A stretch of DNA of 43,773 bases from a virus, in the IMG/VR virus record IMGVR_UViG_3300009108_000017, positions 1-43,773 of that record; one strand, 5' to 3'. Position numbers and translations under genes: made by a program. Below the pieces are notes generated by a model, which searched no databases, was not told the DNA's origin, and was given only the letters and a program-made list of their open reading frames with translations. Positions 4,355-43,773 of the stretch are shown one piece after another (position 1 is the first letter of the stretch; each line of letters begins with the position of its first letter).

Positions 4355-4370
4355 TATTTATAAGAACTTA

Positions 4371-4796: not shown

Positions 4797-4820
4797 TTTT
4801 CATACTCCAGTTAAAGTTAT

Positions 4821-4836: not shown

Positions 4837-4845
4837 TCTATATAT

Positions 4846-4874: not shown

Positions 4875-4880
4875 GGTTTA

Positions 4881-8918: not shown

Positions 8919-8929
8919 TCAACATCTCC

Positions 8930-10960: not shown

Positions 10961-11388
10961 TACTTCACTCCAGTTGAACCAAGGCCTCCACCTCGATCAT
11001 TATCTTTATTTAACTCATATACTTCTTCAAGTTTTGCTTGAGTCATAGGACTAATAACCAACTGTGCAATACGATCACCCTTCTTTACTTCGTATGCCCA
11101 ATGATGATGATTCATCAATATAACTTTAAGTTCATCACGATAACCAGAATCAATAGTGCCAGGTGAATTTAAAACGTGTACTCCATGCTTGGCAGCTAAT
11201 CCAGACCTCGAACGCATTTGTCCCTCATACCCGAATGGTATAATAATATAAAGACCTGTTCCGATTGTTTCCCAATGAAAACCACGAATTGACACATCTT
11301 CATTTGAACGAATATCCATTCCAGCATCACCATCTTTTTTATACTCTGGTAATGGATTATCAGTTTCTTTATAAATTTTAATTTTCAT
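10960..11388 (-). CDS. dut: dUTP diphosphatase (trimeric dUTPase)
   Basis: 142 residues. All five motifs are visible: AGMDIRS (22-28), RSGLAAKHG, the uracil-binding GTIDSGYRDELKV, GDRIAQLV, and the C-terminal Gly-rich arm RGGGLGSTG. It hydrolyses dUTP to dUMP and pyrophosphate, keeping uracil out of phage DNA and feeding dTMP synthesis. The start overlaps the upstream zinc-finger gene by 11 bases and the stop overlaps the gp55 ATG by one base. Confidence 0.96.
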   Translation of the reverse strand: MKIKIYKETDNPLPEYKKDGDAGMDIRSNEDVSIRGFHWETIGTGLYIIIPFGYEGQMRSRSGLAAKHGVHVLNSPGTIDSGYRDELKVILMNHHHWAYEVKKGDRIAQLVISPMTQAKLEEVYELNKDNDRGGGLGSTGVK

Positions 11389-11608
11389 GGTTCGGCCAGT
11401 CCTTTGCGTTAATTCCTATTGGTGTACATTTTGTCGAACTATAAGAGTATTCTGTTTCAACCTGTGCAGGTCGATTAATTGGAAAACTTTGTATGCGTTG
11501 ACATTCTTCACATTCAAAATAACGATACCACTTATGGTCACTAATACCTTCAGCTATCTGCTTGCAGGTATTCATCTGACAATTCGGACATTTCCTCTTC
11601 ATTTTCAT
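11378..11608 (-). CDS. Zinc-ribbon protein (76 aa)
   Basis: 76 residues: CPNC (8-11) and CEEC (33-36) around a short hydrophobic hairpin (HKWYRYFE), then a polar tail with no known motif. It fits a single zinc ribbon of the kind found in small phage transcription or replication accessory proteins. Function not known. The start lies inside the 3' part of the preceding 57-residue gene in another frame, and its end overlaps the dUTPase start. Confidence 0.75.
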   Translation of the reverse strand: MKMKRKCPNCQMNTCKQIAEGISDHKWYRYFECEECQRIQSFPINRPAQVETEYSYSSTKCTPIGINAKDWPNHEN

Positions 11609-11723
11609 AATCGTGTACCACCTTTTTTAATTCGTTTCTAATTTGAAACTTTTTCCAGATTCGTTTTTGTCTTTTCTTCTGCTTTGACTTATCTGTTGAC
11701 ATCTTTCTGTATGTCTTACCCAC
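11550..11723 (-). CDS. Small basic protein (57 aa) behind uvsW
   Basis: A 57-residue frame from a GTG at 11723 preceded by AGGAG at good spacing; an internal ATG at 11702 is an alternative start. The N-terminal 35 residues are strongly basic (KSKQKKRQKRIWKKFQIR) and the last 20 acidic (YENEEEMSELSDEY). It overlaps the next gene by 59 bases in another frame. T4 also has a small gene (uvsW.1) next to uvsW, but similarity cannot be judged here. Nucleic-acid binding is plausible from charge alone. Confidence 0.55.
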   Translation of the reverse strand: MGKTYRKMSTDKSKQKKRQKRIWKKFQIRNELKKVVHDYENEEEMSELSDEYLQADS

Positions 11724-11738
11724 TTCTCTATCTCCTAT

Positions 11739-13725: not shown

Positions 13726-14259
13726 TTAGCCAATCTTTGCGATGTTAAACATTCCTTTAAAATTAAATGTAGCATCAACAACTATGGGGTCAAGTGCCGA
13801 AACTGTGGTATCAAATTGCATAGCACTAAGAGATGTCGGATATACATCATTAAATGTAAATTGATAATTGGGGTTGGATTTATTTGTTTGTACAAAAACA
13901 TTCATATCAGAAAACATGCTCGCATATTCTGAAGCCTCTGAAGCATCTTTCAATGTTTTAAATTGGTCATACTCTCTAGGAAAACCAAGAGCTGTCATCC
14001 AAGTATATACTTCTTGATAATTTTTCAAATCCTCATCAACAATAAAAGATAAGTTAACAGATTCAAATGAAAGAGTATCACCTTCAACAGGCATATTCAT
14101 AAACGGCATAGGTTGAAATGCTTCTCCAAGAATAACAGCTGGTATGCCAACTCTCTGACAAAAATATTCAACACCGGGTAAACGTGAGAAATTAATTTCA
14201 AAACTAACAACATTTAATTGATTAATGTTTGTTGGTTGTGTATCTATAAGTCTACTCAT
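13726..14259 (-). CDS. Tail-tube-like (gp19-type) virion protein
   Basis: 177 residues. The N-terminal half (VVSFEINFSRLPGVEYFCQRVGIPA... FMNMPVEGDTLSFESVNLSF) follows the T4 gp19 fold pattern of 'F.v.. lPg...fcq.v.iPg......p......G....f..l...f.vde', and the C-terminal half has an LDPIVVDATFNFKG strand like a tube subunit. The standard gp19 is encoded separately at 21555. This shorter paralogue may be a baseplate-tube junction or terminator ring. It follows the 49-residue gene with an ATGA overlap. Confidence 0.7.
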   Translation of the reverse strand: MSRLIDTQPTNINQLNVVSFEINFSRLPGVEYFCQRVGIPAVILGEAFQPMPFMNMPVEGDTLSFESVNLSFIVDEDLKNYQEVYTWMTALGFPREYDQFKTLKDASEASEYASMFSDMNVFVQTNKSNPNYQFTFNDVYPTSLSAMQFDTTVSALDPIVVDATFNFKGMFNIAKIG

Positions 14260-21554: not shown

Positions 21555-22175
21555 TTAGAAGTTACCACCAATCGTTTCATTTACGCCAATGCTAAATGGA
21601 CCTGCTTGGACTCGGCCTCTAACTCCGATTTCCCAATCATTGTCTTGAGTCGTACTACCATCAAAACCAGACTCTCCACCTGAATGGAAATTATTGACTG
21701 CAAATGTTACTGTATATTCTTCAACAGTATCATTTGAATCCATAGCAAGATCAATCGCACCAACTTCAACTGGATAGATGTCTTGTAACTTATATGAACG
21801 AATTGAATCACCACTTCGACCTAATTGAATTACTTGCGCACTACCATAAAGACTAGTATAATTCAATGTAGATACGTTAGCAGCATGAGCCGTAATCTGT
21901 CCACTCCAAACTTCAAAAGCCTGGCGTGTAGCAAATGTCGGATCACTCAAGACTGTTACAGTCCAATCTGCAAATGTACGATCTCCGGGAACTTTTAATT
22001 GGCGTCCACGAAAAGGTACATCAATATTACCTATGGTAGAAGCTGGAATTTGAGCTCCTTTACACAAGAACTCAATCTCACCAATACCAACATTATGAGC
22101 GATGTTCACACGAAACAGATTCGGTCGAACACCACCACGAAACTTCTGTTTAAAATCGTGAATATTTACTGCCAT
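21555..22175 (-). CDS. 19: Tail tube protein gp19
   Basis: 206 residues. FRVNIAHNVGIGEIEFLCKGAQIPASTIGNIDVPFRGRQLKVPGDRTFADWTVTVLSD is the classic gp19 N-terminal half, and SYKLQDIYPVEVGAIDLAMDSNDTVEEYTVTFAVNNF the C-terminal half. It stacks as hexamer rings to form the inner tube through which DNA passes. It has a late promoter just upstream and a strong terminator just downstream, so it is produced as a high-copy single-gene unit. Confidence 0.96.
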   Translation of the reverse strand: MAVNIHDFKQKFRGGVRPNLFRVNIAHNVGIGEIEFLCKGAQIPASTIGNIDVPFRGRQLKVPGDRTFADWTVTVLSDPTFATRQAFEVWSGQITAHAANVSTLNYTSLYGSAQVIQLGRSGDSIRSYKLQDIYPVEVGAIDLAMDSNDTVEEYTVTFAVNNFHSGGESGFDGSTTQDNDWEIGVRGRVQAGPFSIGVNETIGGNF

Positions 22176-28658: not shown

Positions 28659-29411
28659 TTATCCTAACGCGATTGCCATTGTTACAGCTTTTGAAGTTGC
28701 TGTTGCTTCTGATACTCCCTCAGTTATCGTTGTAAAACTAAGAGTACCAGAACCATTTGTTTTTAATACTTGTCCACTTGTTCCATCTGAAACATTTAAT
28801 TCTGTTATACCAACTGCATTAGCATCTATTGTAGCATTACCAACAGTACCACCAAGAACACCACCCAATGATGTACCACTTACATTAGTAGAATCTGCAG
28901 CCCATTCAGGTGCTGTTGCACCAGAATTTACTGTTAACACTTGTCCTGCTGTTCCCTTTGCCAATCTTACATAATTAGTACCATTATAATACATAACATC
29001 ACCTGCCGCATCAGAACCAAGTGCGATCTTTGCCCCAGTAACCGTATTATCAGAAGGAGTTATAGTTCCTGTCAATTTACTTGCAGCCATCCCACTAATA
29101 TGAATATCATCTATTGAACCATCAGTATAATGCTCACTATTACAAGCGTTGTCTGCAAGTTTAGTTCCATCAACTGCATCGGCTGCTAACTTAATTGTTG
29201 TTACTGCACCATCTGCTAGTTTAGCTGTAGTTACAGAACCATCTAAGTCCGTCAGACCATGACTTGCAACTATAACAATCGAATTATCAGATTTTCTAGT
29301 ATATACCTTTTGATCTGCAACATTCATACAGATTTCACCAACAGCTAAATCACTTGTCGTTGGTACTGATGATGCTGTTTCACTTTTCTTCGGTTTGAGG
29401 ACTATCGCCAT
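28659..29411 (-). CDS. Fibre-like virion protein with collagen-like/TTAKL repeats
   Basis: 250 residues. A compact N-terminal domain (VGEICMNVADQKVYTRKSDN) of the kind that attaches small fibres, then repeats SVTTAKLADGAVTTIKLAADAVDGTKLAD, then DVMYYNGTNYVRLAKGTAGQVLTVNSGATAPEWA, typical of marine phage fibre or decoration proteins. It lies just upstream of gp13. The start sits within the end of the 63-residue coiled-coil gene (32-base overlap). Confidence 0.8.
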   Translation of the reverse strand: MAIVLKPKKSETASSVPTTSDLAVGEICMNVADQKVYTRKSDNSIVIVASHGLTDLDGSVTTAKLADGAVTTIKLAADAVDGTKLADNACNSEHYTDGSIDDIHISGMAASKLTGTITPSDNTVTGAKIALGSDAAGDVMYYNGTNYVRLAKGTAGQVLTVNSGATAPEWAADSTNVSGTSLGGVLGGTVGNATIDANAVGITELNVSDGTSGQVLKTNGSGTLSFTTITEGVSEATATSKAVTMAIALG

Positions 29412-29571: not shown

Positions 29572-29599
29572 AAAACCTCCATATTAATTATTGTTTTCC

Positions 29600-30772
29600 T
29601 TAATAACTTTGTCCTGCTGGATTAAATTTACCATCAATTAAATCACCTATATCTGTAGCATTTCCGTCTGAAGTAAAGCTATGCTTATCTATTACATTGA
29701 AATAAGAATTATCCCAACCACCATGTGTATATCCAAAAGTAAGAGAGGAAGTACCAGCTAGATTACCTTTTGCGCCTGTTAGATTTCCAACATCTGTAGA
29801 ATTATTATCTGAAGCAAAAGTATATTTCTGAATCGTATTATAAAAATTACTTGCACCCCGATAGTCACCACTAACATAACCATGTGTTGATGAAGAATGT
29901 CCTGCAATTGACTTAGTTGTTGTTAATAAATTTCCTACGTCTGTAGCGTTTGAATCTGAAACATATGGAAACTTGTCAATTATATCATAGAAGGGGGCGG
30001 TTCCACCACCATGACTATAACCATAATCGGCTGATCCTGCCCCTGCTGTATTTGCTCTAGCAACTGTTAGATTTCCTACATCAGTAGCATTTCCGTCTGA
30101 AGTAAAAGAATGTTTATCAATAATATCTGAATTTGCTGACACTTCACCACCAGAAATATATCCATATGACTGAGGACTTGAATTTCCTGCAGCTTTACTT
30201 CTTCCAACAGTTAGATTACCTACGTCGGTAGCGTTTGATGCACTAGCAAATGGAAACTTGTCAATTACATCAACTTTGGGAGTTTCTCCACCTGAAGTAT
30301 AACCATATGTTTTAGAATTAGTACCGGTACAAGCGTCCTGGGATCTTGTCAAATCTGCATAATCGGCAGAGTTTCCATCAGTTGTAAAACTATATCTTTC
30401 TATTACATTTAATCTACCACCCCCGGCAGAATACCCACTAGAACAAAAACCATATTGAGTACCAGCGGGAGTAAAGGGCTCGATATTACCTGAACCTGCT
30501 CCTACGTTAGTCCATACGTTTTCACCAGCAGTTGCATCTGTACATATGTAAACTTCTCCTGAAGTAGTGTTACACCATTCAGTTCCGACACCACCAGAAG
30601 GATTCGTTGATATAGTAGGATCACTTGTTGAATTAGTTACACCAGTAGCTACATTCGTTAATTGACTTGCATCAACCGCAGGAAGATTACCAGAACCATC
30701 ATACACCAAAAGTTTATTGGCAGTTGTTCCTGTGTTCTCCATCAAAGAGATATCTATTTTAGTTAATGCCAT
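29600..30772 (-). CDS. Kelch-like six-repeat tail fibre/adhesin, paralogue A
   Basis: 390 residues. N-terminal adapter (NLPAVDASQLTN), then the block GVGTEWCNTTSGEVYICTD with ATAGENVWTNVGAGSG, then six repeats of about 45 residues of the form YGYxSGG-x-IDKFxFxSDxNATDVGNLT-x-AG. The Gly-Gly, Tyr and hydrophobic spacing is Kelch-like, so a six-bladed beta-propeller is likely. It is the last of five tandem paralogues. A host-receptor binding role is inferred from fibre adapter and location. The ribosome site AAGGA is the same as in its paralogues. Confidence 0.8.
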   Translation of the reverse strand: MALTKIDISLMENTGTTANKLLVYDGSGNLPAVDASQLTNVATGVTNSTSDPTISTNPSGGVGTEWCNTTSGEVYICTDATAGENVWTNVGAGSGNIEPFTPAGTQYGFCSSGYSAGGGRLNVIERYSFTTDGNSADYADLTRSQDACTGTNSKTYGYTSGGETPKVDVIDKFPFASASNATDVGNLTVGRSKAAGNSSPQSYGYISGGEVSANSDIIDKHSFTSDGNATDVGNLTVARANTAGAGSADYGYSHGGGTAPFYDIIDKFPYVSDSNATDVGNLLTTTKSIAGHSSSTHGYVSGDYRGASNFYNTIQKYTFASDNNSTDVGNLTGAKGNLAGTSSLTFGYTHGGWDNSYFNVIDKHSFTSDGNATDIGDLIDGKFNPAGQSY

Positions 30773-30781
30773 TTGTTTTCC

Positions 30782-32065
30782 TTAATAGTTTGCTCCTGTA
30801 TGACCCATGTAGGCTACAATAACTGTCATATCTCCAACATCAGTAGAAGTTCCTGCTGATGCATATGCAATTTTTGAAATAAAATTTTTATAACTACCAG
30901 CTTGTTCTCCACCATGTGTATACCCATGTGTTGTTGATGAAGTTCCAGATCCTCGATTTGGACTATAATTTAAATCTCCCCAATCTGTCGCATTTCCATC
31001 TGATGCAAAAGCAAACCGATCAATAACATTTGATGAAGTAGTACCAGCTGAATAACCATAAGTTTCAGATGAATAACACGAATGACTAAATTTAGTTTGT
31101 GTTAAATCACCAACATCTGTGGCAGTTCCACTACTAATAGTAAAAGGATATTTTTGTATTTGATTTAGACCAGTTCCACCGCTATTATATCCATGTGTAG
31201 TAGAAGAATGACCACCTGAAGAATCAATGTTGTCAAGTAAATCACCACCAGTATCAACCGAATTACCATCAGATGCAAAAGCATTTTTTGTAATTCCAGT
31301 ATTCCCATAATTTGGGGCAGGGGCTCCCTGACCATCAGCCCAAAAAACATATGAATCATTAGAAGAACTTGCTACACCATGTGATTGACCTAGAGCAAGT
31401 GTTCCTACCAATGTAGAATTTCCATCTGACGAATAACTCCATTTTTCAATTTTACCAGTAGATGCATAACCTCCAATATAACCATGAGTAGTTCCTGTAC
31501 CACCACAAGCATAATGTCCTGCTGTTGTTATATCTCCTACGTCGGTAGCATTTCCGTCTGTAGTAAAACTATATTTTTCTATTATATTTTGTGCGCCTGT
31601 TCCTGTATTATATCCACCAGCTCGATAACCATACTGTGTCCCTTGGAATGCCCAAGGTGCTACATCACCTGAACCTGCTCCTACGTTAGTCCATACGTTT
31701 TCTCCAGCAGTTGCATCAGTACATATATATACTTCTCCTGTACTTGTGTTATGCCATTCACTACCAACACCTCCAGAAGGATTTGTTGTTATAACAGGAT
31801 CACTAGAACTCTTTGTTGCACCTGGCATATTTGTTATTTGACTTCCATCAAGTGCAGGTAACTTTGCATTACCATCTAACTGTACAATCTTGTTGGCAGT
31901 TGTACCCGTATCAATACGAGCAATTGGAATCGTACCAGTAGCAATGTTACCAGCTGCAATAGCGGTAACTTGACTTCCATCAACAGCTGGAATCTTTCCA
32001 GTACTGTCTAAGAACAGAAATCTATTTGCTCCTATTGTTGTTCCATCTATAGTTATATCTGCCAT
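30782..32065 (-). CDS. Kelch-like six-repeat tail fibre/adhesin, paralogue B
   Basis: 427 residues with two N-terminal adapter repeats (GKIPAVDGSQVT and AKLPALDGSQIT), the conserved SEWHNTSTGEVYICTD block, and six Kelch-like repeats (for example HGYNSGGTGLNQIQKYPF and YGYSAGTTSSNVIDRFAF). One repeat (SYVFWADGQGAPAPN) is clearly degenerate. The gap to each neighbour is 9 bases, with AAGGAAAACAA before the ATG. Confidence 0.8.
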   Translation of the reverse strand: MADITIDGTTIGANRFLFLDSTGKIPAVDGSQVTAIAAGNIATGTIPIARIDTGTTANKIVQLDGNAKLPALDGSQITNMPGATKSSSDPVITTNPSGGVGSEWHNTSTGEVYICTDATAGENVWTNVGAGSGDVAPWAFQGTQYGYRAGGYNTGTGAQNIIEKYSFTTDGNATDVGDITTAGHYACGGTGTTHGYIGGYASTGKIEKWSYSSDGNSTLVGTLALGQSHGVASSSNDSYVFWADGQGAPAPNYGNTGITKNAFASDGNSVDTGGDLLDNIDSSGGHSSTTHGYNSGGTGLNQIQKYPFTISSGTATDVGDLTQTKFSHSCYSSETYGYSAGTTSSNVIDRFAFASDGNATDWGDLNYSPNRGSGTSSTTHGYTHGGEQAGSYKNFISKIAYASAGTSTDVGDMTVIVAYMGHTGANY

Positions 32066-32074
32066 TTGTTTTCC

Positions 32075-33352
32075 TTAGTATTGTGAACCACAAGGTCCCA
32101 GATAATTTTTAGCAGCCGTTAAATCTCCGATATCAGTAGCATTTGTATCAGAAGCATGAGGCCACTTTTGAATGGTGTTTACTGAGTTTCCACCACCTGC
32201 TCCAGTATCACCGCCACAACTATAACTATGTGTTAGGGATGATATACCAGAACTTACCCAAAGTGCCGCTATTAAATTTCCAATATCAGAACCAGCAGCA
32301 CTTGCCGCAAATGCAAATTTTTGAATATGATCGGTACGACTAGGCGCGGAACCCGCTCCAAAATTATAACCATGTGTAAGTGAAGAACTTCCTCCAGTTT
32401 GACCAGCACCAACGGCAAGATCACCAACATCAGCACCATTTGCAGATGCTTGCATTTGAAAACGCTCAATATATACTGACTGAGCACCACTAACAAAACC
32501 ACCGTGGATATATCCATAACCAGCATCTGTGTCAGAAGATCCGGCCGCATGACCATAGGATACAGTAGAATCACCTACATCAACTGCATTTGATGAAGAA
32601 GCATCAGCAGAACGCTCAATTATGTTTCCCTGACCCATCCAATAACAATGAGTTTCAGAACTACAAGAACCCAGATCCCTTCTAGTTGAAGTGAGATCAC
32701 CCACATCAACAGTATTACCTTCTGCAGCCCAAGACATTCTTTCTATTACATTTGAATTTCCACTAGGAGGATAACCACCCGCACAATAACCATGAGTAGG
32801 AGATGAACAACCTGTCCTCTCTCCTCCTGCTACGAGTATGTCACCGACATCAGTAGCATTTCCATCAGACGTAAGAGAAACTCGGTCAATTGCATTAGTA
32901 GTTGGTACAGTACCTCCCCATATATATCCATAACTAGAGCCTGGAAAATTAAATGGTTGTATATCACCTGAACCTGCACCTACATTAGTCCATACGTTTT
33001 CTCCAGCAGTTGCATCAGTACATATATATACTTCTCCTGAAGTTTTGTTAACCCACTTTGCACCAAGTGTAAGATTTGTATCTATAGCTGGATCACTCGT
33101 ACTTACAGTAGGTCCCGGAGCATTGGTTAAGTTTGCACCACTTATTGCAGGTATCTTTGCATTACTATCCAACTGTAATATTTTTCCTGCTGTAGTACCA
33201 ACATCTATTCTTGCTGTTGCAAGAGAACCAGTACTAAATGCAGAAGCATTCAAAGCAGTAACTTGACTACCATCAATAGCTGGTATCTTACTGTTACCAT
33301 CCAGTACGATAGTATTGTTTGCTCCAACTGTATTTGTTACATTAATCGTCAT
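32075..33352 (-). CDS. Kelch-like six-repeat tail fibre/adhesin, paralogue C
   Basis: 425 residues: two adapter repeats, the block WVNKTSGEVYICTDATAGEN, and six repeats. Residues at predicted loop positions differ strongly from the other copies (YWMGQG, YIHGGFVSGAQS, NFGAGSAPSRTD), while the frame residues VGDL are kept. Loop variation with frame conservation is what would be expected for diversified binding surfaces. Confidence 0.8.
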   Translation of the reverse strand: MTINVTNTVGANNTIVLDGNSKIPAIDGSQVTALNASAFSTGSLATARIDVGTTAGKILQLDSNAKIPAISGANLTNAPGPTVSTSDPAIDTNLTLGAKWVNKTSGEVYICTDATAGENVWTNVGAGSGDIQPFNFPGSSYGYIWGGTVPTTNAIDRVSLTSDGNATDVGDILVAGGERTGCSSPTHGYCAGGYPPSGNSNVIERMSWAAEGNTVDVGDLTSTRRDLGSCSSETHCYWMGQGNIIERSADASSSNAVDVGDSTVSYGHAAGSSDTDAGYGYIHGGFVSGAQSVYIERFQMQASANGADVGDLAVGAGQTGGSSSLTHGYNFGAGSAPSRTDHIQKFAFAASAAGSDIGNLIAALWVSSGISSLTHSYSCGGDTGAGGGNSVNTIQKWPHASDTNATDIGDLTAAKNYLGPCGSQY

Positions 33353-33361
33353 TTGTTTTCC

Positions 33362-34519
33362 TTATTGTTGACTTGTTGCCATATAATATCTTGCGACAGT
33401 TAAATCTGCTATATCAGTAGCATTACCCGAAGATGCCATCTGTAATTTTTGAATTATATTGGTACTTGATCCACCACCAGTTGTCCCACCAGAATGATAA
33501 GCATGAGTCGTAGATGAAGTTCCACCACCAACAGCTTGCGCACTAGCCAAATCACCGACATCAGAACCATTTGATGAAGCTGCAAATTGGAATCGTTCAA
33601 TGTAATTATTTACCCACGGATTACCTCCACCCAAAGCATAGCCATAAGTCAATGAACTACATCCTGCTTCATAAGACCTATTACCTGGCATGTCACCAAC
33701 ATCAGTAGAATTACCATCACTAGAATAAGAAACTCGTTGAATGTGATTTTGATCTGGATTATTACCTCCTGAACCATAACCATAACCTCCATTAATATCA
33801 CTATACCCAGCAATATAAGTAGCATTAGATAACAAATCACCGACATCAGTACTATTTCCATCTGTGCTGTGAGAATATTTTTCTATTCTATTATTTTCAC
33901 CACCAACACTATAACCATGAGTAATAGACGAAAAACCTCCATTACCTCCTAAACTTCCACCAACCAAATCTCCAATACGACTTGCATCTGAAGAACTTCC
34001 AAAAGCAAACTTAAAGATATCATCTGTATATGTTGAGGGCGACCAGCCGCCAGCCCAAAAACCATAAGTTGCAGATGAAGAACCACCACCAGATTGTCTT
34101 GCAAGAACTACATCACCGACATCAGTAGCATTTGAATCACTCGTAAAAGGGAAACGGTCGATTACGTTTGAAGAAGGCCACCCTGACATCTGATAACTAT
34201 AAGATTCACCCGGAAATGTCCAAGGCTGTACATCACCTGTACCTGCTCCTATATTAGTCCATACGTTTGCACCAGCTGTTGCGTCTGTACATATGTATGC
34301 TTCACCTGATGTCTTATTATACCAAACAGAACCAACACCATCAGAAGGATTTGTTGCTATAACAGGATCACTTGTTGATACAGTAAAACCAGTATCAACA
34401 TTAGTTAATTGACTTCCATCTATAGCTGGAAGATTACCTGAACCATCTCGTTGTACGAGTTGGTTTGCAGATGTTCCTACATCTTCCATCATTGTAATGT
34501 CTAATTTATTTACTGCCAT
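33362..34519 (-). CDS. Kelch-like six-repeat tail fibre/adhesin, paralogue D
   Basis: 385 residues: one adapter repeat with the N-terminus MAVNKLDITMMEDVGTSANQ, close to that of paralogue A, then VWYNKTSGEAYICTDATAG and six repeats ending in VARYYMATSQQ. The final repeat ends in Gln-Gln instead of the Gln-Tyr or Asn-Tyr of the others. A and D share the single-adapter N-terminus; B, C and E share the longer one. Confidence 0.8.
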   Translation of the reverse strand: MAVNKLDITMMEDVGTSANQLVQRDGSGNLPAIDGSQLTNVDTGFTVSTSDPVIATNPSDGVGSVWYNKTSGEAYICTDATAGANVWTNIGAGTGDVQPWTFPGESYSYQMSGWPSSNVIDRFPFTSDSNATDVGDVVLARQSGGGSSSATYGFWAGGWSPSTYTDDIFKFAFGSSSDASRIGDLVGGSLGGNGGFSSITHGYSVGGENNRIEKYSHSTDGNSTDVGDLLSNATYIAGYSDINGGYGYGSGGNNPDQNHIQRVSYSSDGNSTDVGDMPGNRSYEAGCSSLTYGYALGGGNPWVNNYIERFQFAASSNGSDVGDLASAQAVGGGTSSTTHAYHSGGTTGGGSSTNIIQKLQMASSGNATDIADLTVARYYMATSQQ

Positions 34520-34528
34520 TTGTTTTCC

Positions 34529-35806
34529 TTAGTATTCTGTTCCACCACCAGATGCAATTCCAGCATCAAGGTCAGCTACATCTACACTATTCCCATCTGT
34601 AGTAAAACTAAATTTTTCAATTACATTTGTATTTCCAGGATAACCACCTATCTCATAACCATAAGCTGTTGCCGATGATGCAGTAGATCCTCCTGTAGCT
34701 GTCAATAAATTACCTACATCAGTACCATTATTACTTGAATCAAATTGAAATTTTTGAATCGTATTTGTCCATCCTGAATTAACACCTGCTGAACTATACC
34801 CATGTGTGGTTGATGATGAACCCGAATTATTATACATAGATTCAAACAAATCTTGTGTTGTATCAACTGAATTACCATCTGACGCAAAAGCATTTCTTTC
34901 AATCTGATTAGTATGAGCACCAGTATATCCACCGACATTATAACCATGAGTTAAAGTAAAACAAGTAGCTCCTGAATGTCTACCCACTGCCATATCACCT
35001 ACATCAGTAGCATTTGAATCTGTTGCGTTTGGATGTTTATCAATAACATTTCTATAACTATTACCACCACCTTCTCCACCATAATTATAAATATGACTAC
35101 TAGATGAACAACTATTGTTCCAGAAAGCACGACCTATAGTTAAATCACCTACATCAGTAGCATTTGAATCTGACGCAAATGGAAATTTATTAATATCAAC
35201 CTTACTTGGTTCGCCACCAGCACCATAACCATAAGATGTAGATTTTCCACCACACATACCCTGCGCACCATATAACATATCTCCTACATCAGTTCCATTT
35301 GAATCTGATGATAACGACCATTTTCCAATACGATTACTTGCACTAGGATTTCCACCTATATAATATCCATAATTAGAACCCTGAACACTCCACGGCAAAA
35401 TATCACCTGTACCTGCTCCTACATTAGTCCATACATTTGCTCCAGCAGTTGCATCTGTGCATATATACATCTCACCTGTTGTACTATTATTCCATTCTGT
35501 TCCAACACCACCAGAGGGGTTTGTACTTACTGTAGGATCACTTGCAGAGATTGTTGCAGATACTATACCAGTTAATAGACTTGCATCAACAGCTGGAAGA
35601 TTTCCAGAACCATCTAGTAATACAAGTTTATTTGCAGTCGTACCAGTATCCAATCGAGCTGATGCAATAGTACCACTAGCAACATTGGTAGCATTCAGAA
35701 TTGTTATCTGACTACCATCTTTTGCTGGTATCTTACTACTACCATCGGCAACCAATATTTGATTGGCACCGTTTACTTGACTATCTGATATAGATATAAT
35801 TGCCAT
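34529..35806 (-). CDS. Kelch-like six-repeat tail fibre/adhesin, paralogue E
   Basis: 425 residues: two adapter repeats (SKIPAKDGSQITILNATN and GNLPAVDASLLTG), the block EWNNSTTGEMYICTDATAGA and six repeats. The stop of the next upstream gene and this start are directly adjacent. It is the first of the five tandem copies in the direction of transcription. Confidence 0.8.
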   Translation of the reverse strand: MAIISISDSQVNGANQILVADGSSKIPAKDGSQITILNATNVASGTIASARLDTGTTANKLVLLDGSGNLPAVDASLLTGIVSATISASDPTVSTNPSGGVGTEWNNSTTGEMYICTDATAGANVWTNVGAGTGDILPWSVQGSNYGYYIGGNPSASNRIGKWSLSSDSNGTDVGDMLYGAQGMCGGKSTSYGYGAGGEPSKVDINKFPFASDSNATDVGDLTIGRAFWNNSCSSSSHIYNYGGEGGGNSYRNVIDKHPNATDSNATDVGDMAVGRHSGATCFTLTHGYNVGGYTGAHTNQIERNAFASDGNSVDTTQDLFESMYNNSGSSSTTHGYSSAGVNSGWTNTIQKFQFDSSNNGTDVGNLLTATGGSTASSATAYGYEIGGYPGNTNVIEKFSFTTDGNSVDVADLDAGIASGGGTEY

Positions 35807-37399
35807 TTAGAAAGTTCCACCATCAATTACATTTGTCCATTCTGGTGTTCCACTATTAGATTTAAGAAAGTAACCATTCGCACCAGCTGCAGTTACATTA
35901 ATTGTACCAGTACCATTACCATATAATATTCCATTAGATGTAAATGTTGATGCACCTGTTCCACCAAATCCAACTGTCAATTGTGCAGGGGTTGTCCAAG
36001 TTCCACTTGTAACTATTCCGACACCTGTTGCACTTGAAGTATTTAAACCAGTTCCACCTTTTGTTGCACTAATTGCTGTTGCGTTCCAAGTACCAGTTCC
36101 AATAGTTCCTACAGTTGTAATTGCAGCTTGACCTGCCCATGCCGTATCAATAACAATATTATCCGATGTAACAGTAATACCAGTACCCGTATTAACATAC
36201 ATGGTATTTCCAGTTTTACTTAAACCATCACCAGTTGTTATTTGTCCTGTTCCAGAAAATTGTGCAAATAAAATTTGTGTCGATCCAAAAGTAATAGCAG
36301 TATCTTGTGTCATTACATAACCATTGTCTGCATTAGTAGTTCCACCTTCACAAAAGAAAAACACACCAGAATTTAATTCAGCAGCTGTATCAGCATCAGT
36401 CGTTCTTGTTAATACCCAATTAGCTGAACCACTACCAACAGTAGTTACTTTGTAAATACCATTTGCAGTATTACCAGTTTGGTCTTTAACCAATACTCTA
36501 TCATTAAGTGAAAGTGCTACACCATCAATATTAATTGCAGCTTGTGTATCACTATTAGTCATAGTTGCACCAACACCACTAACACCATTATTATATGTAA
36601 CAGTAAGATTTGTTGTCGTTGCAACCTTAACTGAATCCTTTACTTCTAGTCCAGTTAAATTATTATCAACATATGTTTTAATTGCTAATGCACTTGCAAG
36701 AGTTGTATGAGTTCCTGCAACAGTTGTTAAATCTGTATCAAGAGCAGTAATACCATCCAACAAATTTAACTCTGTAGCTGATGCTGTAACTTGAGTTGCA
36801 GAACCACTTGCACCAATCCAGAGTTGAGTTGTTTTAACAAGATCAATATGTTTATTACCATCAAGTACAACTGCTCTTCCACCATAAGAAGTTCCAACAG
36901 TTGTATCAACAAAATTTAGTTGTGCTGTTGATGAAGTACAACCATCTAACTTATTAAGTTCAGTTGTATCTAATGTTGCACCATCAAGAATATTTAATTC
37001 TGTTGATGATGAAGTAACACCAGATAATTTATTTAACTCTGCCGCAGTTGCTGTAACTTGAGTTGCAGAACCTGTCGAACCAATATAGAGTGCCGTTGTT
37101 TTAACTGCATCTACATGAGAATTATTATCTGTTAATATTGCTGATGATGCAGTAAGAGTTCCATTAGCATGGTCTAACATTTTGGTAAAATAAGAACCAC
37201 CAATAATTACTGAAGTTCTTGTTCCACCTAAACCATCTGCATGACCAATATAAAGTTTTCCCTGTCCAGCCTCATCACCACTACCATCACTAGCTGAATA
37301 AGAATAACCTAATTCACCAGCAGTTAAAGAACCACCACTAATATTAGAATTAGGTACTGTATTATTTGTTGATCTTTTTATTTGTATTACATTAGCCAT
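35807..37399 (-). CDS. Tail fibre protein with TELN/LDG repeats
   Basis: 530 residues. N-terminal LTAGELGYSYSASDGSGDEAGQGKLYIGHADG domain is typical of marine T4-like fibre or baseplate-attached proteins. Residues about 110-230 hold repeats of ATELNKLDGVTS type (ELNKLSG, ELNILDG, ELNKLDG, QLNFVD, ELNLLDG), which form a trimeric shaft. The C-terminal part (IVTSGTWTTPAQLTVGFGGTGASTFTSNGILYGNGTG) has the GGTG repeats of fibre tips. It probably forms a proximal shaft to which other fibres attach. Confidence 0.85.
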   Translation of the reverse strand: MANVIQIKRSTNNTVPNSNISGGSLTAGELGYSYSASDGSGDEAGQGKLYIGHADGLGGTRTSVIIGGSYFTKMLDHANGTLTASSAILTDNNSHVDAVKTTALYIGSTGSATQVTATAAELNKLSGVTSSSTELNILDGATLDTTELNKLDGCTSSTAQLNFVDTTVGTSYGGRAVVLDGNKHIDLVKTTQLWIGASGSATQVTASATELNLLDGITALDTDLTTVAGTHTTLASALAIKTYVDNNLTGLEVKDSVKVATTTNLTVTYNNGVSGVGATMTNSDTQAAINIDGVALSLNDRVLVKDQTGNTANGIYKVTTVGSGSANWVLTRTTDADTAAELNSGVFFFCEGGTTNADNGYVMTQDTAITFGSTQILFAQFSGTGQITTGDGLSKTGNTMYVNTGTGITVTSDNIVIDTAWAGQAAITTVGTIGTGTWNATAISATKGGTGLNTSSATGVGIVTSGTWTTPAQLTVGFGGTGASTFTSNGILYGNGTGTINVTAAGANGYFLKSNSGTPEWTNVIDGGTF

Positions 37400-37409
37400 A
37401 GTTTATTCC

Positions 37410-37658
37410 TTAGTCCATTAATCCTGCATCAAAAGCTAAATCTGTAAATGCTTTTAATTCATATCTTGATATACCTGAGTTCCAAACTAATAAAGAATTA
37501 TTTGGTGCAGATGATGAATCTACATCTGTTGCAGTATTAACTGTTATTGTTCCTCTAGTTTCTGTAGATTGAACAACAGCAGATGCAGAAATTCCCGGTT
37601 GTGTTACTTTAACAACACTTGAAACATCAGAAGCTGCTTGTACGACAAGATTTGCCAT
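37410..37658 (-). CDS. Small virion protein (82 aa)
   Basis: 82 residues, beta-rich: VSSVVKVTQPGISASAVVQSTETRGTITVN and the tail NSLLVWNSGISRYELKAFTD. The ending resembles short segments in phage fibre adapters (LVWNSGISRYE). It lies between the LamG fibre and the TELN fibre and overlaps the next upstream stop by one base. Likely a structural adapter. Confidence 0.7.
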   Translation of the reverse strand: MANLVVQAASDVSSVVKVTQPGISASAVVQSTETRGTITVNTATDVDSSSAPNNSLLVWNSGISRYELKAFTDLAFDAGLMD

Positions 37659-37996
37659 TACTTAGTTACCTCTGGTCTAATAGTTATTACTCCTTCGATA
37701 ACTCTTGTAACTGTTGAATCAGCAGCAGTTATCTGTAAATCATAAACATATCTACCTGCTTTAAGTGCAGCTGTTTGTACAGCTGTCAATGATATAACAA
37801 TAATACCGCCAGTCGGTGGTGTCTGTATTGTTGCAAGAATTGTTGTATATGCAGTTGATGTATAATTCTTGCGTAACTGTGATGCCGCAGTATATCCAGT
37901 TAAATTCTGAATAGTCGTACCATCATTTTCATATACAGTAATCGACTTTGAATATGTCGAACCTTGATCTATATTTTGATTTAGTATTGATGCCAT
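37658..37996 (-). CDS. Ig-like/BppU-type small virion protein (112 aa)
   Basis: 112 residues. The strand pattern QGSTYSKSITVYENDGTTIQNLTGYTAASQLRKNYTST and AALKAGRYVYDLQIT... RVIEGVITIRPEVTK matches the short beta-sandwich domain at the N-termini of baseplate fibre proteins (BppU-like) and similar marine phage proteins. A fibre-attachment or baseplate adapter role is inferred. Confidence 0.75.
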   Translation of the reverse strand: MASILNQNIDQGSTYSKSITVYENDGTTIQNLTGYTAASQLRKNYTSTAYTTILATIQTPPTGGIIVISLTAVQTAALKAGRYVYDLQITAADSTVTRVIEGVITIRPEVTK

Positions 37997-37999
37997 ATC

Positions 38000-39445
38000 T
38001 TATGCCCAAGCCAATGAAGTTGCGTGTACTCTTGTTTCCTTTGATCCCGATGCCTGATTTGCCCATTCAATTTTATATCTCATATCAGTTCCAGAAGCAC
38101 TATTTGAAAATGCTACGTTGTTTGCAGATACAATCTTTTTAGTTCCACTTCCCCAAGTACCTTTATCCACAAGTGTTGCTTGATCCCATCCAGTTCCACC
38201 ATTACGAGATACATAAGCTTTTAAATCTGTATTCAATGTTGCTGTGCCTGCAAAATTTTCTACCAACATACAAATGTCACCTGTCGTTGGTGCAGACAAT
38301 GCTGTGTTTGCAGTTGATACTACATTACCAGTAGCGTTGGCAGCTGCTACCGGTGGAGTCATTGAAGCACCCGAATATCTTGCAATACCTTTAGAAATTC
38401 TAAGTTCATCCATATAATAACCACTTGTAGCAAACTCACTAGCAGCATGTGAGTTTGCTGAATCAACATGAGCTCCGATTGCTATATCACCACGATCACC
38501 AGATGTCCCAGTTAAACAAGTTTCACTTATTCGTCTTGTGCCATTTATGTAAACATCTATAGTATTCCCACCCCTACGTTGCATAACTACATAATTCCAT
38601 GCAGCTGTATTATAATACTCTCCTGTCGTTGAATGATGTCCTGATTGACCAAATTCCATACGAAACGCATCACTTGGATCAGAAGCAGTTTCAATATCCC
38701 ATTGTCCACCATTGTTATAATGATGATTTGGATGATGATTTACCAATCTATTTTGTCCTACCAATGGATTAGGACAATATACATAAAATTCAACAGTAAA
38801 GTCACCATCAAATTGCAAAGATGCATGCCACGGAACCCAAAAAGCAGTTGACCCAGTAAAAGCCCAACTAGTTGCTCCGATTTTATTTTGTGTTGTTGAA
38901 TGAGTTATTCCCCCAACTCTAGTTATTGTATGTCCGTAAGAAGAGCTGTCGGTGAATGTGGTGCCACCATTTGTTGTATCTGAATGTACGAGCAATGAAG
39001 TGTAAGAATCTGATGTAAATTGACCTGACGACATAGTTGTTAAATATCCAGCAGTTGCAGTTGCACCTGTTTGTAAAACATTTGTTACTGTCACTCCTGT
39101 CCCGTCTTTGTATTCATCAATCACTTGGTCAATCAAATTAAACTTTGCAAGATTATTTGCCGCCTGTGTTTTGAATGCGAGTATAGCAATATTATTTTCT
39201 AATACTGATGTATCAGTTGAAACACCAGTTAAGTTACTACCATCTATTGCAGGTAACGCACCACTAAGATTTGCCGATGCTAAATTTGTTAATGCAGAAC
39301 CATTGAGTGCAGGAAGATTACCAGTTAGTTTAGATGAACTAACACCAGTTTGAATCTTGGCATCTGTTATAGAACCATCAGCTATGTCTGCCGCGACAAC
39401 AGTTTCATCTGCTATGTTACTTGATTTAATTCTTGTTAATGCCAT
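38000..39445 (-). CDS. Tail fibre with LamG/concanavalin-like domain
   Basis: 481 residues. N-terminal adapter repeats (GNLPALNGSALTNL, GALPAIDGSNLTG), a short coiled coil (DTSVLENNIAILAFKTQAANNLAK), a LamG-like sandwich (about 190-360: FTVEFYVYCPNP, IDVYINGTRR, YMDELRISKGIARY) and a C-terminal domain PTTGDICMLVENFAG ending in TRVHATSLAWA. LamG-like domains bind carbohydrates in many phage tail proteins. The same adapter and C-terminal domain occur in the giant fibre next to it, so it is a smaller paralogue. Confidence 0.85.
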   Translation of the reverse strand: MALTRIKSSNIADETVVAADIADGSITDAKIQTGVSSSKLTGNLPALNGSALTNLASANLSGALPAIDGSNLTGVSTDTSVLENNIAILAFKTQAANNLAKFNLIDQVIDEYKDGTGVTVTNVLQTGATATAGYLTTMSSGQFTSDSYTSLLVHSDTTNGGTTFTDSSSYGHTITRVGGITHSTTQNKIGATSWAFTGSTAFWVPWHASLQFDGDFTVEFYVYCPNPLVGQNRLVNHHPNHHYNNGGQWDIETASDPSDAFRMEFGQSGHHSTTGEYYNTAAWNYVVMQRRGGNTIDVYINGTRRISETCLTGTSGDRGDIAIGAHVDSANSHAASEFATSGYYMDELRISKGIARYSGASMTPPVAAANATGNVVSTANTALSAPTTGDICMLVENFAGTATLNTDLKAYVSRNGGTGWDQATLVDKGTWGSGTKKIVSANNVAFSNSASGTDMRYKIEWANQASGSKETRVHATSLAWA

Positions 39446-39457: not shown

Positions 39458-42400
39458 TTATGACCAAGCTAAACTCGTTCCGTGTATTCTTGTTATTTTT
39501 CCTGACTCTGCTGTATATGATGAATCAGTTAAATTACCATCTCCATGAAGTAATAATTGTGTATTTGCATCAGTTGTAAAAGCAGATGTTGCTGGTGTAA
39601 AATTAGATGTATATCGTGCTGTATTAGAAAGTCTAACTTCATCCATGTAACCTATAAAACCATCACCCGAGTTTGCAGGTTTCCACCCAAGAAACGGTGT
39701 ACCAACATTTGCAAGATTTTGTGCCATTGTTGTACTCGCACCCTGAGTTCCATCTATAAATATTTTTACTGTTCCACTACTACGAGAACAAGCTACATGA
39801 CACCAAGTACTTACTGGTACTGTTGATGAAGTACTAAGTTCTGGTGATGGAGGACCATGAAGTTGAAGTCTAAGAGTTCTATTAGGATTAACATCAAAAA
39901 TCCAATCATATGTTTGTGTACCCCATTGGTTACTACCAAATAATTTTTTCTGACTAGAAATAGCTGCTAAGTAAATCCACATCTCCCAAGTAAAATCACC
40001 AGTACCATAATCCCAAGTTGCATTATCTTCTATTGAAAAATAATCTCCGTTAGCAGGAAAAGATAAAGAATGAGTTCCAAATTTCTTTTGAGTTGTTGAT
40101 GTAGTTGCATTTGATACAGCTGATACTGTATATGCTGTACCAACTGCCGCCGTGTAACTCTGATTCTTTGTTTCAATCTTATATCTCATACTAGTCGTTG
40201 CAGCTTCTGCTGGTGTGTTTGCCGTACCACCCATTGATGCATGATTAGAACAATAGTAATATAATGTTGGTGCTGATCCAGCTACAGCAATTTGTGTATA
40301 TGCATTAGCACTTCCAGGTGTTCCACTTTCTGTAACACCAGTTGTATATTGTGTACTACCAGCTGCGTCTGCCGCAGTTGCAAATTTAAATGTATGTCCC
40401 GACAATGTAGCATGAGATGTATCAAACTTATAAGTATATCCTTCAGTCAATTCTAAAGTTGGTTGCTGGTTTGAATAGGATAAAGCAGTCCATCCACTTT
40501 TCCAACTAATATCTGCGTAACTTGCATAAGGACTGCTACCTCCACCACCAGCTCCAAAAAAAATATGCATAGTTCCTGTAATGATATTAGTTGCAGTATG
40601 TTTTAAAGTTCCATTTTGATATACAGTAAGAGTAGAACCTACTCTTTTAAATTTATGAACATCATTATTACTACAAGTATACGCTGCCAAAGAAGAATTT
40701 GAACCACCACAAAGACCTTCTGTTTTGGTATCTCTCGCTTGAGTAGCAATAAACCATGTGTCTGTAAAACTTACCATATTACCATTTTCTTGTGATGAGT
40801 TAAATGATCCTACTTCCGCTGAGTCAAATACACCGAACCAACCAGCAGCAGATTCACCAGCAGTTATTTTAGCTTCTACTTCAAAATCTCCACTAAGAGT
40901 TGCTGTACTGTACATTGCTTTATTATTTGTAGTAGCTGTAACTGTTCCTGAACCATAAGAAAAACTACTAGGACTGCCTGTAAATTCACTTGCTGCAGAT
41001 GGAGTTGTCGAAGTAGACCAACTTGCAGGTGTTTCAACTTCATCAATATGAAACTTTGATGAACGAGCAGTTATTGCTTTCGTAATAGTCCCAGGTATCG
41101 TAACATCATTAGCTGCCCATACATTTTGATTTGTTCCCCATGTACCTTTATTTACTAAAGTTGTATCTACATAATTTAATGCATCTCTACTTACACCAAC
41201 TTTAACATCTGTATTGATTGTTGCTGTTCCCACTTCATCTTCAGTCTGTATCATTATGTCTGCTTTCGTTGGTGCAGTCTGTGCCGTTGTCGTGGTTGAT
41301 ATAAGGGACATACTATCTGAAGCTGCTACGGCAGCTACTGCTCCACCATGAACCAAAAGTTTTGTATTTGCATCTGATGTAAATTGTGTAGGACTAGCAA
41401 TCGTTCCACCTCCTTGACCAAACGCTGTGAAATTAGATGTATATCTTGCTACATTAGAAATTCTAATTTCTTCTAAATAACCTTCAAGATCCCTTGTCGT
41501 TCCTCGCCACGATGTGTTGCCTTGCTGTCCGAGAAAAAGATTATTTGAATTAGAAAAATTAGTACCTACTGTACCTGTCCCATTAGAAGCCAGCGTACCA
41601 TTAATATATAATTTTGATTGATTTGACCCTGATCCCTCTCTAACCCACGCTAGATGATACCAAGTATTTAATGTAGGCACAGTTGCACTATAAAGTGTTC
41701 GTGTGTTCGCCAAATAGACTGCTGGATAAAAATCGTTCATAAGTCCAATCGCCCAAACAGAATTATAACCATTATCACCTATCAATAAATTTTGTGCAGA
41801 TGAACCAGTATTACCATTAAGTACTGTTACGTTATACCAAAATTCAATTGTAAAAGGATTTGTCCCAAAACTAAAATCACTATGTGAAGTAATTTCTACT
41901 CTATCTCCATCTCCATCAAAAGCTATTGAATGTGTTCCAATCTTTTTACTTGCCGTTGATATTACTGCGTTAGTTGCTGTTACTGTATGTGCTGAACTAC
42001 TTGCATCTGTCATAGCAGCAACAGCTGCAACAGCAGTTACTTGTCCCTCATAATATTTTGCACCAGCACTACCTTGTAACTCTGCACTAGTAGAAGAACC
42101 TGTGTTTACTGCGGCAGGTACAGCACTTGGTTGTGGTGTATCAGTTGACCGATCTCCAGAAGTTAAATTAGCAACTGTAAAATCAATATTATTTCCACTC
42201 ACATCATTACCAAGAGCACTACTATCCGCAAAGTCTAAATAAAAACCATTAGTACCATATGTTAATCCCGTAACTGTTTTTGGTTTCCAAACACCAGAAA
42301 CAGTTTGTCCGAATGTACTTGGTGTTAATTGTTGTCCATCTACTGAACGAAAATCAGCCAAATATCCGTCAAAATAAAGTGAAGATGTTTCTCTACGCCC

Positions 42401-43204
42401 AAGATATATTTTACCATTGTTTGCACGAATATCAGAATTTTGACCAACAGCAGCATTAGTATCCCAAGCAGTAATTTCTGAACCATCAATATAAACTTTA
42501 AGACGATCAGCAGCTGTGCCTTGAGAACTATCCCATGCAACTACAATATGAACCCAATCAGTCGTACTCGTAAATGTTTGTGTTGATATTCTTACAGTTG
42601 TATCTCCTTGTTGAATATATATTTTATTAGCTGCTTGCCATCCAACTTGATTTCTAGCAGTAGAACTACCAGAATAATTTGCCCACATTCTTTGGTCTGA
42701 AGAAATTGATGCCCTCTTAAACCACCAACTCTGTGTTCCCTTTGTAGTAGAACCACCAGACAAACTTGCCTTTGACATATCATCTGAACTAGCTCGAGTA
42801 AATCTACAAGAGTATGGAATTGCAGGAATAGCTGGGGAACTATTCTCAGCAGTAATACCCGTAGCGTCCTCATAGTTATCTATTACTTGGTCAATCATAT
42901 TATACTTGGTCAACTGGTCAACAGCACCAATTTGCAAACCAAGTCGTGCTAACTGATTTTCTATTGGATTAAAATCTGTCGTGATACCAGTTAATGCAGT
43001 TCCATCAAGTACAGGTAAAGCACCAGTAAGATTTGCAGCTGTCAGATTGGTTAATGCAGAACCATTGAGTGCAGGTAAAGCACCAGACAATTTACTGGAA
43101 CTCAATGCAGCTATATTGTCATTTGATATTGTGTTATCATCAAAGTCAATACCTGCAATAGTTCCATCTTCAATGTTACTTGCTTTTATAGTATTTAGTG
43201 CCAT
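39458..43204 (-). CDS. Giant multi-domain tail fibre with LamG-like and cupredoxin-like modules
   Basis: 1248 residues. Adapter repeats at 40-75, a helical linker, LamG-like domains at about 130-295 and 430-595, a split small domain starting at 645, a SPRY/concanavalin-like domain (about 725-900), a cupredoxin-like module (914-994) and a final LamG-like domain (1035-1210). The C-terminus TRIHGTSLAWS matches the 481-residue paralogue. The adhesins are probably sugar-binding. The cupredoxin-like module has H937, C985, H988 and M991 in the blue-copper ligand order. A late promoter lies 25 bases upstream of the ATG. It is the largest gene in the window. Confidence 0.88.
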   Translation of the reverse strand: MALNTIKASNIEDGTIAGIDFDDNTISNDNIAALSSSKLSGALPALNGSALTNLTAANLTGALPVLDGTALTGITTDFNPIENQLARLGLQIGAVDQLTKYNMIDQVIDNYEDATGITAENSSPAIPAIPYSCRFTRASSDDMSKASLSGGSTTKGTQSWWFKRASISSDQRMWANYSGSSTARNQVGWQAANKIYIQQGDTTVRISTQTFTSTTDWVHIVVAWDSSQGTAADRLKVYIDGSEITAWDTNAAVGQNSDIRANNGKIYLGRRETSSLYFDGYLADFRSVDGQQLTPSTFGQTVSGVWKPKTVTGLTYGTNGFYLDFADSSALGNDVSGNNIDFTVANLTSGDRSTDTPQPSAVPAAVNTGSSTSAELQGSAGAKYYEGQVTAVAAVAAMTDASSSAHTVTATNAVISTASKKIGTHSIAFDGDGDRVEITSHSDFSFGTNPFTIEFWYNVTVLNGNTGSSAQNLLIGDNGYNSVWAIGLMNDFYPAVYLANTRTLYSATVPTLNTWYHLAWVREGSGSNQSKLYINGTLASNGTGTVGTNFSNSNNLFLGQQGNTSWRGTTRDLEGYLEEIRISNVARYTSNFTAFGQGGGTIASPTQFTSDANTKLLVHGGAVAAVAASDSMSLISTTTTAQTAPTKADIMIQTEDEVGTATINTDVKVGVSRDALNYVDTTLVNKGTWGTNQNVWAANDVTIPGTITKAITARSSKFHIDEVETPASWSTSTTPSAASEFTGSPSSFSYGSGTVTATTNNKAMYSTATLSGDFEVEAKITAGESAAGWFGVFDSAEVGSFNSSQENGNMVSFTDTWFIATQARDTKTEGLCGGSNSSLAAYTCSNNDVHKFKRVGSTLTVYQNGTLKHTATNIITGTMHIFFGAGGGGSSPYASYADISWKSGWTALSYSNQQPTLELTEGYTYKFDTSHATLSGHTFKFATAADAAGSTQYTTGVTESGTPGSANAYTQIAVAGSAPTLYYYCSNHASMGGTANTPAEAATTSMRYKIETKNQSYTAAVGTAYTVSAVSNATTSTTQKKFGTHSLSFPANGDYFSIEDNATWDYGTGDFTWEMWIYLAAISSQKKLFGSNQWGTQTYDWIFDVNPNRTLRLQLHGPPSPELSTSSTVPVSTWCHVACSRSSGTVKIFIDGTQGASTTMAQNLANVGTPFLGWKPANSGDGFIGYMDEVRLSNTARYTSNFTPATSAFTTDANTQLLLHGDGNLTDSSYTAESGKITRIHGTSLAWS

Positions 43205-43228: not shown

Positions 43229-43236
43229 TATTTATA
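43229..43236 (-). promoter_or_regulatory. Late promoter of the giant fibre
   Basis: TATAAATA on the minus strand, 25 bases upstream of the ATG at 43204, in the gap after the partial fibre gene at 43272. It probably drives the fibre run from here downwards. Confidence 0.7.
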
Positions 43237-43271
43237 ATTATGTCTTACTCACTTTGGACTTTTTGTTTTCC

Positions 43272-43773
43272 TTAGTATTGTGCGCCTGTTGGCCCATTAT
43301 ATCTACCACCCGCTGTAACTAAATCTCCGACATCGGTAGCATTAGCATCACTCGCCAGCGTAAACTTCTCAATTATAGTATTGTGTGAATCAGGCCAAAT
43401 ACCTCCCATACAATAACCATATGTTGTTGATGTTACGCCGGTAAGGTCAAATCGAGCAACAGTTAAATCTCCAACATCAGTAGAAGTGATACTTGAACCA
43501 AAGGCAAATTTTCGTATATAATTACTTTGACTGGGTTCTCCTCCTCCAGATTGATAACCATATGTTTCTGTTGATTGATTTGCATGAGAAGCTTGTGGAT
43601 ATATCATATCACCAACATCAACAGCATTAGAAGATGCTTGCATTTGATAACGATCAATAGTATTATTTGTGCCAGGATAACCACCTGTGCAATAACCATA
43701 ACTATTTCCAACATCAGAATTACCACCTGGATAATTTCTCGCAACACTTAAATCACCGACATCAGCAGCATTA
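43272..43773 (-). CDS. Kelch-like fibre/adhesin, paralogue F, 5' end beyond window
   Basis: The reading frame is open from the window edge to the stop at 43272. The visible C-terminal part has three full repeats and part of another (YGYCTGGYPGTNNTIDRY, YGYQSGGGEPSQSNYI, YGYCMGGIWPDSHN; each with VGDL) and ends in GPTGAQY, as in the other copies. It lies upstream of the LamG fibres, so the Kelch-like family flanks them on both sides. Confidence 0.8.
   Translation of the reverse strand, partial: NAADVGDLSVARNYPGGNSDVGNSYGYCTGGYPGTNNTIDRYQMQASSNAVDVGDMIYPQASHANQSTETYGYQSGGGEPSQSNYIRKFAFGSSITSTDVGDLTVARFDLTGVTSTTYGYCMGGIWPDSHNTIIEKFTLASDANATDVGDLVTAGGRYNGPTGAQY

Follow-up and report, generated by a model that had tools for sequence, protein, structure and literature searches.

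In the viral record IMGVR_UViG_3300009108_000017 of IMG/VR, a stretch of 43,773 nucleotides (the window) contains five tandem minus-strand genes, K1 to K5, and part of a sixth paralogue, K0, all encoding Kelch-like repeat proteins. Structure models support the conclusion that each array gene encodes a closed six-bladed Kelch propeller. The products of K0 to K5 are probably co-expressed receptor-binding tips of tail fibres, diversified by the replacement of propeller cassettes on fixed mounts. An adhesin function, as proposed in a first-pass annotation of the bare sequence, is suggested by the position of the array in a tail-fibre locus, the occurrence of Gly_rich_2 tips on the same adapter in other phages, and the concentration of variation on one predicted face of the propeller. 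We infer that the proteins are present in the virion, bind receptors, are mounted simultaneously and change by recombination.

The Kelch genes and their repeats

The array is read from K1 (34529-35806) to K5 (29600-30772). Each protein consists of an N-terminal mount of 44 or about 82 residues, a conserved adapter of 50 residues and a C-terminal six-repeat region.

34529-35806, minus strand: K1, first gene of the array, 425 residues, long mount type (83 residues); adapter 35405-35557, propeller 34529-35371
33362-34519, minus strand: K2, 385 residues, short mount type (44 residues); adapter 34235-34387, propeller 33362-34201
32075-33352, minus strand: K3, 425 residues, long mount type; adapter 32966-33109, propeller 32075-32932
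30782-32065, minus strand: K4, 427 residues, long mount type; adapter 31667-31819, propeller 30782-31633
29600-30772, minus strand: K5, last gene of the array, 390 residues, short mount type; adapter 30488-30640, propeller 29600-30454
43272-43773, minus strand: K0, sixth paralogue, of which the window edge leaves the C-terminal 166 residues (about 3.5 repeats)

The first-pass annotation had described five adjacent genes of 390, 427, 425, 385 and 425 residues, separated by 9-base gaps and each carrying six Kelch-like repeats of about 45 residues. The open reading frames were confirmed, all on the minus strand, and all four gaps proved to be the identical sequence GGAAAACAA. The count of five missed the partial paralogue K0 at 43272-43773, which lies upstream of a gene for a LamG protein and is followed by the same TAAGGAAAACAA tag as the array genes.

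A repeat profile detected exactly six repeats of about 45 residues in each of K1 to K5, with the blade motif YGYxxGG...IDKF...SDGNATDVGDL. A profile built without the window repeats still yielded six per gene, with a worst per-repeat E-value of 7e-9, and the best match among 1000 residue-shuffled copies was no better than E = 0.02. Hence, the six-repeat pattern is far beyond chance. The PHROG family phrog_19111 matched K1, K2, K3, K5 and K0 (E-values from 1.6e-20 to 6.9e-8) and did not match K4. The third blade of K4 lacks the YGYxxGG motif, yet it was modelled as a blade.

Propeller fold

AlphaFold models were computed for K5 (alignment of 33 complete proteins) and K4 (28 proteins). The mean predicted local distance difference test (pLDDT) score was 85 for K5, with most propeller residues above 90, and 78.8 for K4. 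Both models contain 24 strands in the repeat region, corresponding to six blades of four. In the K5 model the first b strand follows the adapter without another strand in between, and a confident terminal strand lies at residues 386-389; a C-terminal strand may complete blade 1 and close the ring. Best matches among structures in the PDB were the human Kelch domains of KLHL12 and KEAP1 and the designed protein SAKe6, with best E-values of 8.8e-20 for K5 and, to KLHL12, 1.5e-13 for K4, and target TM-scores (template modelling scores) of up to 0.94. Together with the constant number of six repeats in all 34 complete genes from 12 contigs, window included, these models support the closed six-bladed propeller suggested by the first-pass annotation. 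One of the 34 genes, from the contig L016, is identical to K5, and another was listed with seven repeats due to a spurious partial N-terminal match. An open solenoid was rejected, both models being propellers.

On the sequence level the relationship is remote. A profile from 33 sequences reached KLHL12 among the PDB sequences at an E-value of 8e-6 with the GG pairs aligned; a direct search of PDB sequences with one single copy gave no match, and the Pfam Kelch models gave none at E-values up to 1. The GG pair is conserved (G in 90% at both positions), as is Y at repeat position 3 (88%). The tryptophan usual in strand d of Kelch repeats is not conserved, position 30 being V in 67% and W in 4%. 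Compared with KLHL12, KEAP1 and SAKe6, the array genes thus share the predicted fold, the six four-stranded blades and the GG pair after the aromatic strand, but differ in the blade motif, the missing Pfam Kelch match, the predominant replacement of the strand-d tryptophan by valine, and the viral adhesin-like setting.

Variable loops and the likely binding face

In each repeat, the strong loop variation noted in the first-pass annotation could be narrowed down to two specific loops. Mean entropy, taken over 234 repeats, was 3.4 bits in the b-c loop (positions 8-13) and the d-a loop (positions 35-40) compared with 1.5 bits on the opposite side, in the c-d turn and in strand a with the a-b turn (p = 2e-4). 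The window repeats alone gave 3.1 bits versus 1.4 bits (p = 6e-4). The two loops also vary in length: they hold 175 out of 207 inserted residues. According to blade topology, the twelve loops of a propeller would lie on one face, the likely ligand-binding surface, with the opposite face and the strands kept. The same side of KEAP1 binds peptides.

Blades at equal positions in different genes were 38.8% identical and blades at different positions 38.0%. This excess is real but tiny; it was reached by 1 out of 2000 permutations.

Mounts and propellers evolve apart

Mount types are common to different phages. Within the window the mounts are only 28-66% identical to each other, while orthologous mount types across related phages share 77-90% identity. 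The counterparts of the window mounts and, for K1 to K3, the identities of the propellers that they carry were as follows.

K1: mount 90% identical to L009:10001 and L010:2035; propellers 43% and 36%
K2: mount 79% identical to L010:4513; propeller 42%
K3: mount 84% identical to L017:702 (propeller 39%) and 81% to L009:13775 (propeller 41%)
K4: mount 85% identical to L009:11258
K5: mount 82% identical to L009:12539

Propellers on nine pairs of orthologous mounts were 40.5% identical versus 39.8% in other pairs, and mount and propeller identities were uncorrelated across phages (Spearman -0.02, 102 pairs). The same boundary is visible on the DNA level. In bins of 12 codons, DNA identity was 82-89% as far as the adapter extends and 47-59% thereafter. 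This drop, from roughly 85% to 53%, falls at the junction of adapter and propeller in all nine pairs. The relatives L010, L012, L015 and L017 match the window at 73-93% identity in their neck, sheath-stabiliser and small terminase proteins and at 39-52% in their array proteins.

Most of the diversity probably stems from replacement of a whole propeller, with the conserved adapter on one side and the conserved 3' tag TAAGGAAAACAA on the other, by recombination with other copies or other phages. Because no propeller transfer was found, swapping is deduced from the decoupling of mounts and propellers. Several points weigh against this interpretation of the array. The decoupling test comprised 17 genes from five phages. 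In three propeller-only scans of viral contigs there was no case of the same propeller on two different mounts; for K2 and K3 these scans returned nothing, and for K4 nothing beyond the identical copy in L016. Rapid divergence driven by selection could mimic swapping. The mount region has low confidence in the K5 model, and the placement of the b-c and d-a loops on one shared face derives from the topology of a four-stranded meander rather than from coordinates.

It was considered whether the proteins are fibre tips in which fast point mutation and positive selection within each gene, and not cassette replacement, make the propellers diverge. The lack of a donor and recipient pair of propellers is in agreement with this view, and so is the finding that blade position is nearly unrecognisable between genes, which indicates that blades change very fast. 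Nevertheless, we regard it as unlikely, since DNA similarity stops sharply at the adapter/propeller junction in 9 out of 9 pairs. In addition, a stretch of 2,152 bases of K4 and K5 recurs unchanged in L016, a separate IMG/VR record, which argues against rapid hypermutation in this region. A search for a reverse transcriptase (RVT_1) in the window and four related contigs, which are fragments, also remained without result. A diversity-generating retroelement was accordingly rejected for the sequences searched.

Positions 1-9115 of L016 correspond to 31732-22640 of the window. Both are identical from about 31732 to 24900, except for a 65-base deletion where a 63-residue open reading frame begins and a few mismatches near the end of the identical part. 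Beyond about 24.9 kb, inside the terminase gene and further on, they diverge by about 15-30%. The point of divergence may be a recombination junction or the join of a chimeric assembly.

Adapter and 3' tag

Other marine viral contigs also carry the adapter sequence, SDPxxxTNPSGGVGxxWxNxTSGEVYICTDATAGENVWTNVGAGSG, and Pelagibacter phage HTVC103P has a more distant version of it. In these cases a glycine-rich tip follows, identified as Pfam Gly_rich_2 in the three contig proteins scanned. Phage L009 carries both kinds of tips, Kelch and Gly_rich_2, on the adapter. Small genes encoding only a mount and an adapter were observed in L027, L029, L030, L031 and L033 (open reading frames of 114 residues) and in L019 (1375-1605). 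They end right after the adapter and lie beside full-length genes with adapter and tip.

The 12-mer TAAGGAAAACAA, which comprises the stop codon and GGAAAACAA, occurs six times in the window, in all cases at the 3'-end of one of the genes K0 to K5.

34520-34528, minus strand: 3' tag GGAAAACAA after K1; TAAGGAAAACAA when the stop codon is included
33353-33361, 32066-32074, 30773-30781, 29591-29599 and 43263-43271, minus strand: further identical tags

In close relatives, 18 out of 21 genes carry this tag. Since K0 and K5 are tagged without a Kelch gene coming after them, the 9-base gap belongs to the cassette end and is more than a ribosome site for the gene that follows. Where the residue is the same, codons in the second half of the adapter are 72% identical between paralogues versus 54% in the propeller. 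This agrees with homogenisation by recombination, but codon constraint could also explain it.

Each mount type has its own conserved sequence; thus, different members of the array are probably attached at different sites of the fibre or baseplate. A more far-reaching model is a dedicated cassette system for surface recognition in this T4-like marine phage lineage. Five to ten propellers would be mounted at once on distinct mounts, each conserved in its own right, and exchanged as units between the adapter and the 12-base tag; every virion would thereby gain a combinatorial repertoire of binding faces without a retroelement or an invertase. This model is put forward tentatively; we consider it possible and somewhat doubtful.

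Genome context and the tail-fibre locus

The window (35% G+C) is part of a T4-like marine myovirus, with portal, scaffold, major head protein, sheath, tube, neck and terminase matching T4-type PHROGs. The head protein is 64% identical to those of Methylophilales phage Melnitz and Pelagibacter phage HTVC008M and 89% identical to that of a close relative, G001. The array lies between two fibre-like genes, of 530 residues directly upstream of K1 and of 250 residues downstream, the latter being followed by neck genes.

39458-43204, minus strand: 1248-residue protein with LamG/concanavalin-like lectin domains (PF13385, E-value 2.4e-45), first complete gene of a tightly packed run
38000-39445, minus strand: 481-residue baseplate/fibre-like protein (phrog_24074, phrog_13163)
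37658-37996, minus strand: 112-residue protein resembling the L-shaped tail fibre assembly family (phrog_3304, E-value 7.5e-22)
35807-37399, minus strand: 530-residue fibre-like protein, directly upstream of K1 (tail fibre PHROGs)
28659-29411, minus strand: 250-residue fibre-like protein, downstream of the array (tail fibre PHROGs)

The N-terminus of the 530-residue protein is similar to the product of a 648-residue tail fibre gene at the same place in Melnitz, and that of the 250-residue protein to a 517-residue Melnitz tail fibre. The array is collinear with the annotated tail fibre genes of Melnitz preceding the neck genes and hence occupies the position of a tail-fibre locus. In HTVC008M fibre genes were not found at the syntenic place, so that this phage gave no comparison for the array. 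Two genes of the window, 13726-14259 and 21555-22175, match the tail tube family phrog_45, and the first sits apart from the sheath gene.

The 530-residue protein also matches head decoration and virion structural PHROGs. This would fit a role of the Kelch proteins as virion decoration or scaffold, holding other virion proteins or loosely binding sugars on particles rather than specific host receptors, with the variable face reflecting divergence of the partners. Kelch domains are protein-binding modules in cells, and some phage Kelch proteins are annotated only as virion structural (PMC5259590). We consider such a role improbable, because the array sits in the tail-fibre locus, the same adapter bears Gly_rich_2 tips, and retention of the mounts combined with complete loss of likeness between the propellers is a pattern typical of receptor-binding ends.

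Expression

From position 43204 down through the array the genes are tightly packed, and one T4-type late promoter motif precedes the run.

43229-43236, minus strand: TATAAATA, late promoter motif of the T4 type, located 32 bases ahead of the 1248-residue gene

No such motif was found directly upstream of any gene between the 1248-residue gene and K5. The motif shows no enrichment relative to chance across the whole window, and sigma-70-like and terminator-like sites occur at chance level. Judged from the packing and the single upstream late motif, the array genes are likely co-expressed, which argues against expression of only one copy; they would be made together as late structural proteins. 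The use of one copy at a time, with the others as a silent reserve moved or converted into an active site, could draw on the serial near-identical adapters and 3' tags as substrates for gene conversion and on the greater codon likeness of the adapters, but it is very improbable given that K1 to K5 are all intact and have start codons and an AAGGA tag resembling a ribosome site, that terminators do not exceed chance level, and that such a reserve would not need the type-specific mounts conserved in relatives.

Relatives and known systems

The comparison of copy number proposed in the first-pass annotation revealed variation from three genes in L010, a fragment, to ten each in G001 and G002. The order of adhesin genes in L009 differs from that in the window, LamG-like genes following the array. 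Single-sequence searches of the phage collection with K1 and K5 (tblastn) gave only adapter matches or weak repeat matches. No relative was found in bacterial genome contigs (A1 scan); thus, a prophage or host-derived origin is not supported.

In L011, which belongs to another phage group, seven tandem Kelch genes and an eighth were observed at 2822-12285. Their N-termini are unrelated to those of the array, their blades are more uniform (63% identical to each other), and their spacer, GGATTAA, is a different one. A consensus-like relative from this contig had no matches in the phage collection. A related repeat (YGYFGGG...TIDRIDFSNETTS) is represented by phrog_19111 and by several genes of one isolated marine phage, Synechococcus phage S-SKS1. 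Those genes differ in having up to eight or nine repeats per frame, in being partly frame-split and in lacking the adapter. The Kelch-like genes of S-SKS1 lie at both ends of its record (L037 and L071) and are annotated as hypothetical proteins; an array there may be broken by sequencing or assembly. Marine virus AG-345-L05 (L073) encodes unannotated proteins of 900-970 residues with 7, 12 and 16 weak Kelch-like repeat matches, which perhaps hold two or more propellers per chain.

As judged from fold matches, the giant phages vB_PcaM_CBB, PhiPA3, PS119XW and BcepSaruman also carry Kelch propellers, and mass spectrometry detected the Kelch protein CBB_552 in the virion of vB_PcaM_CBB (PMC5259590). 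Marine long-read viral data show an enrichment of Kelch repeats, which are lost on assembly (PMC9238414). Tandem arrays in which mounts are fixed and propellers replaced were found described neither for the giant phages nor elsewhere in the papers searched, which did not cover subscription papers.

The tailspikes TSP1 to TSP4 of the Ackermannviridae form branched complexes and have type-specific conserved N-termini and variable C-termini recombined at conserved 5'-ends (PMC11414711). The array resembles this system in its several putative receptor-binding genes with conserved N-termini and variable C-termini. It differs in that up to four polysaccharide-recognising tailspikes are joined there by XD/TD, in contrast to five to ten copies of Kelch propellers on other mounts. 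General Pfam and PHROG scans of K1 to K5 showed no member of the XD/TD (Gp10-like) family, a search aimed at XD not having been made. T-even phages have one adhesin site. Their gp37/gp38 system of the distal tail fibre is comparable to the array, which likewise belongs to a T4-like phage and has relatives with glycine-rich tips on the same adapter, but the window has a tandem Kelch array instead. For T-even phages, adhesin swapping between conserved motifs is described (Tetart et al. 1998, as cited in PMC11414711). The array is a variation on known modular phage adhesin systems, with Kelch propellers in arrays of five to ten.

Receptor-binding proteins are mostly unknown for the phages that kill abundant uncultured marine bacteria, and the array offers concrete candidate adhesins that can be tested and for which a binding face is predicted. 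It also represents a natural evolvable propeller scaffold, in which twelve loops vary while the fold and the number of blades are fixed. If several copies are mounted at once, this would explain how such phages track fast-changing host surfaces without a mutation-generating element. Conserved mounts with wholly different propellers in related phages suggest a modular kit for the recognition of changing hosts.

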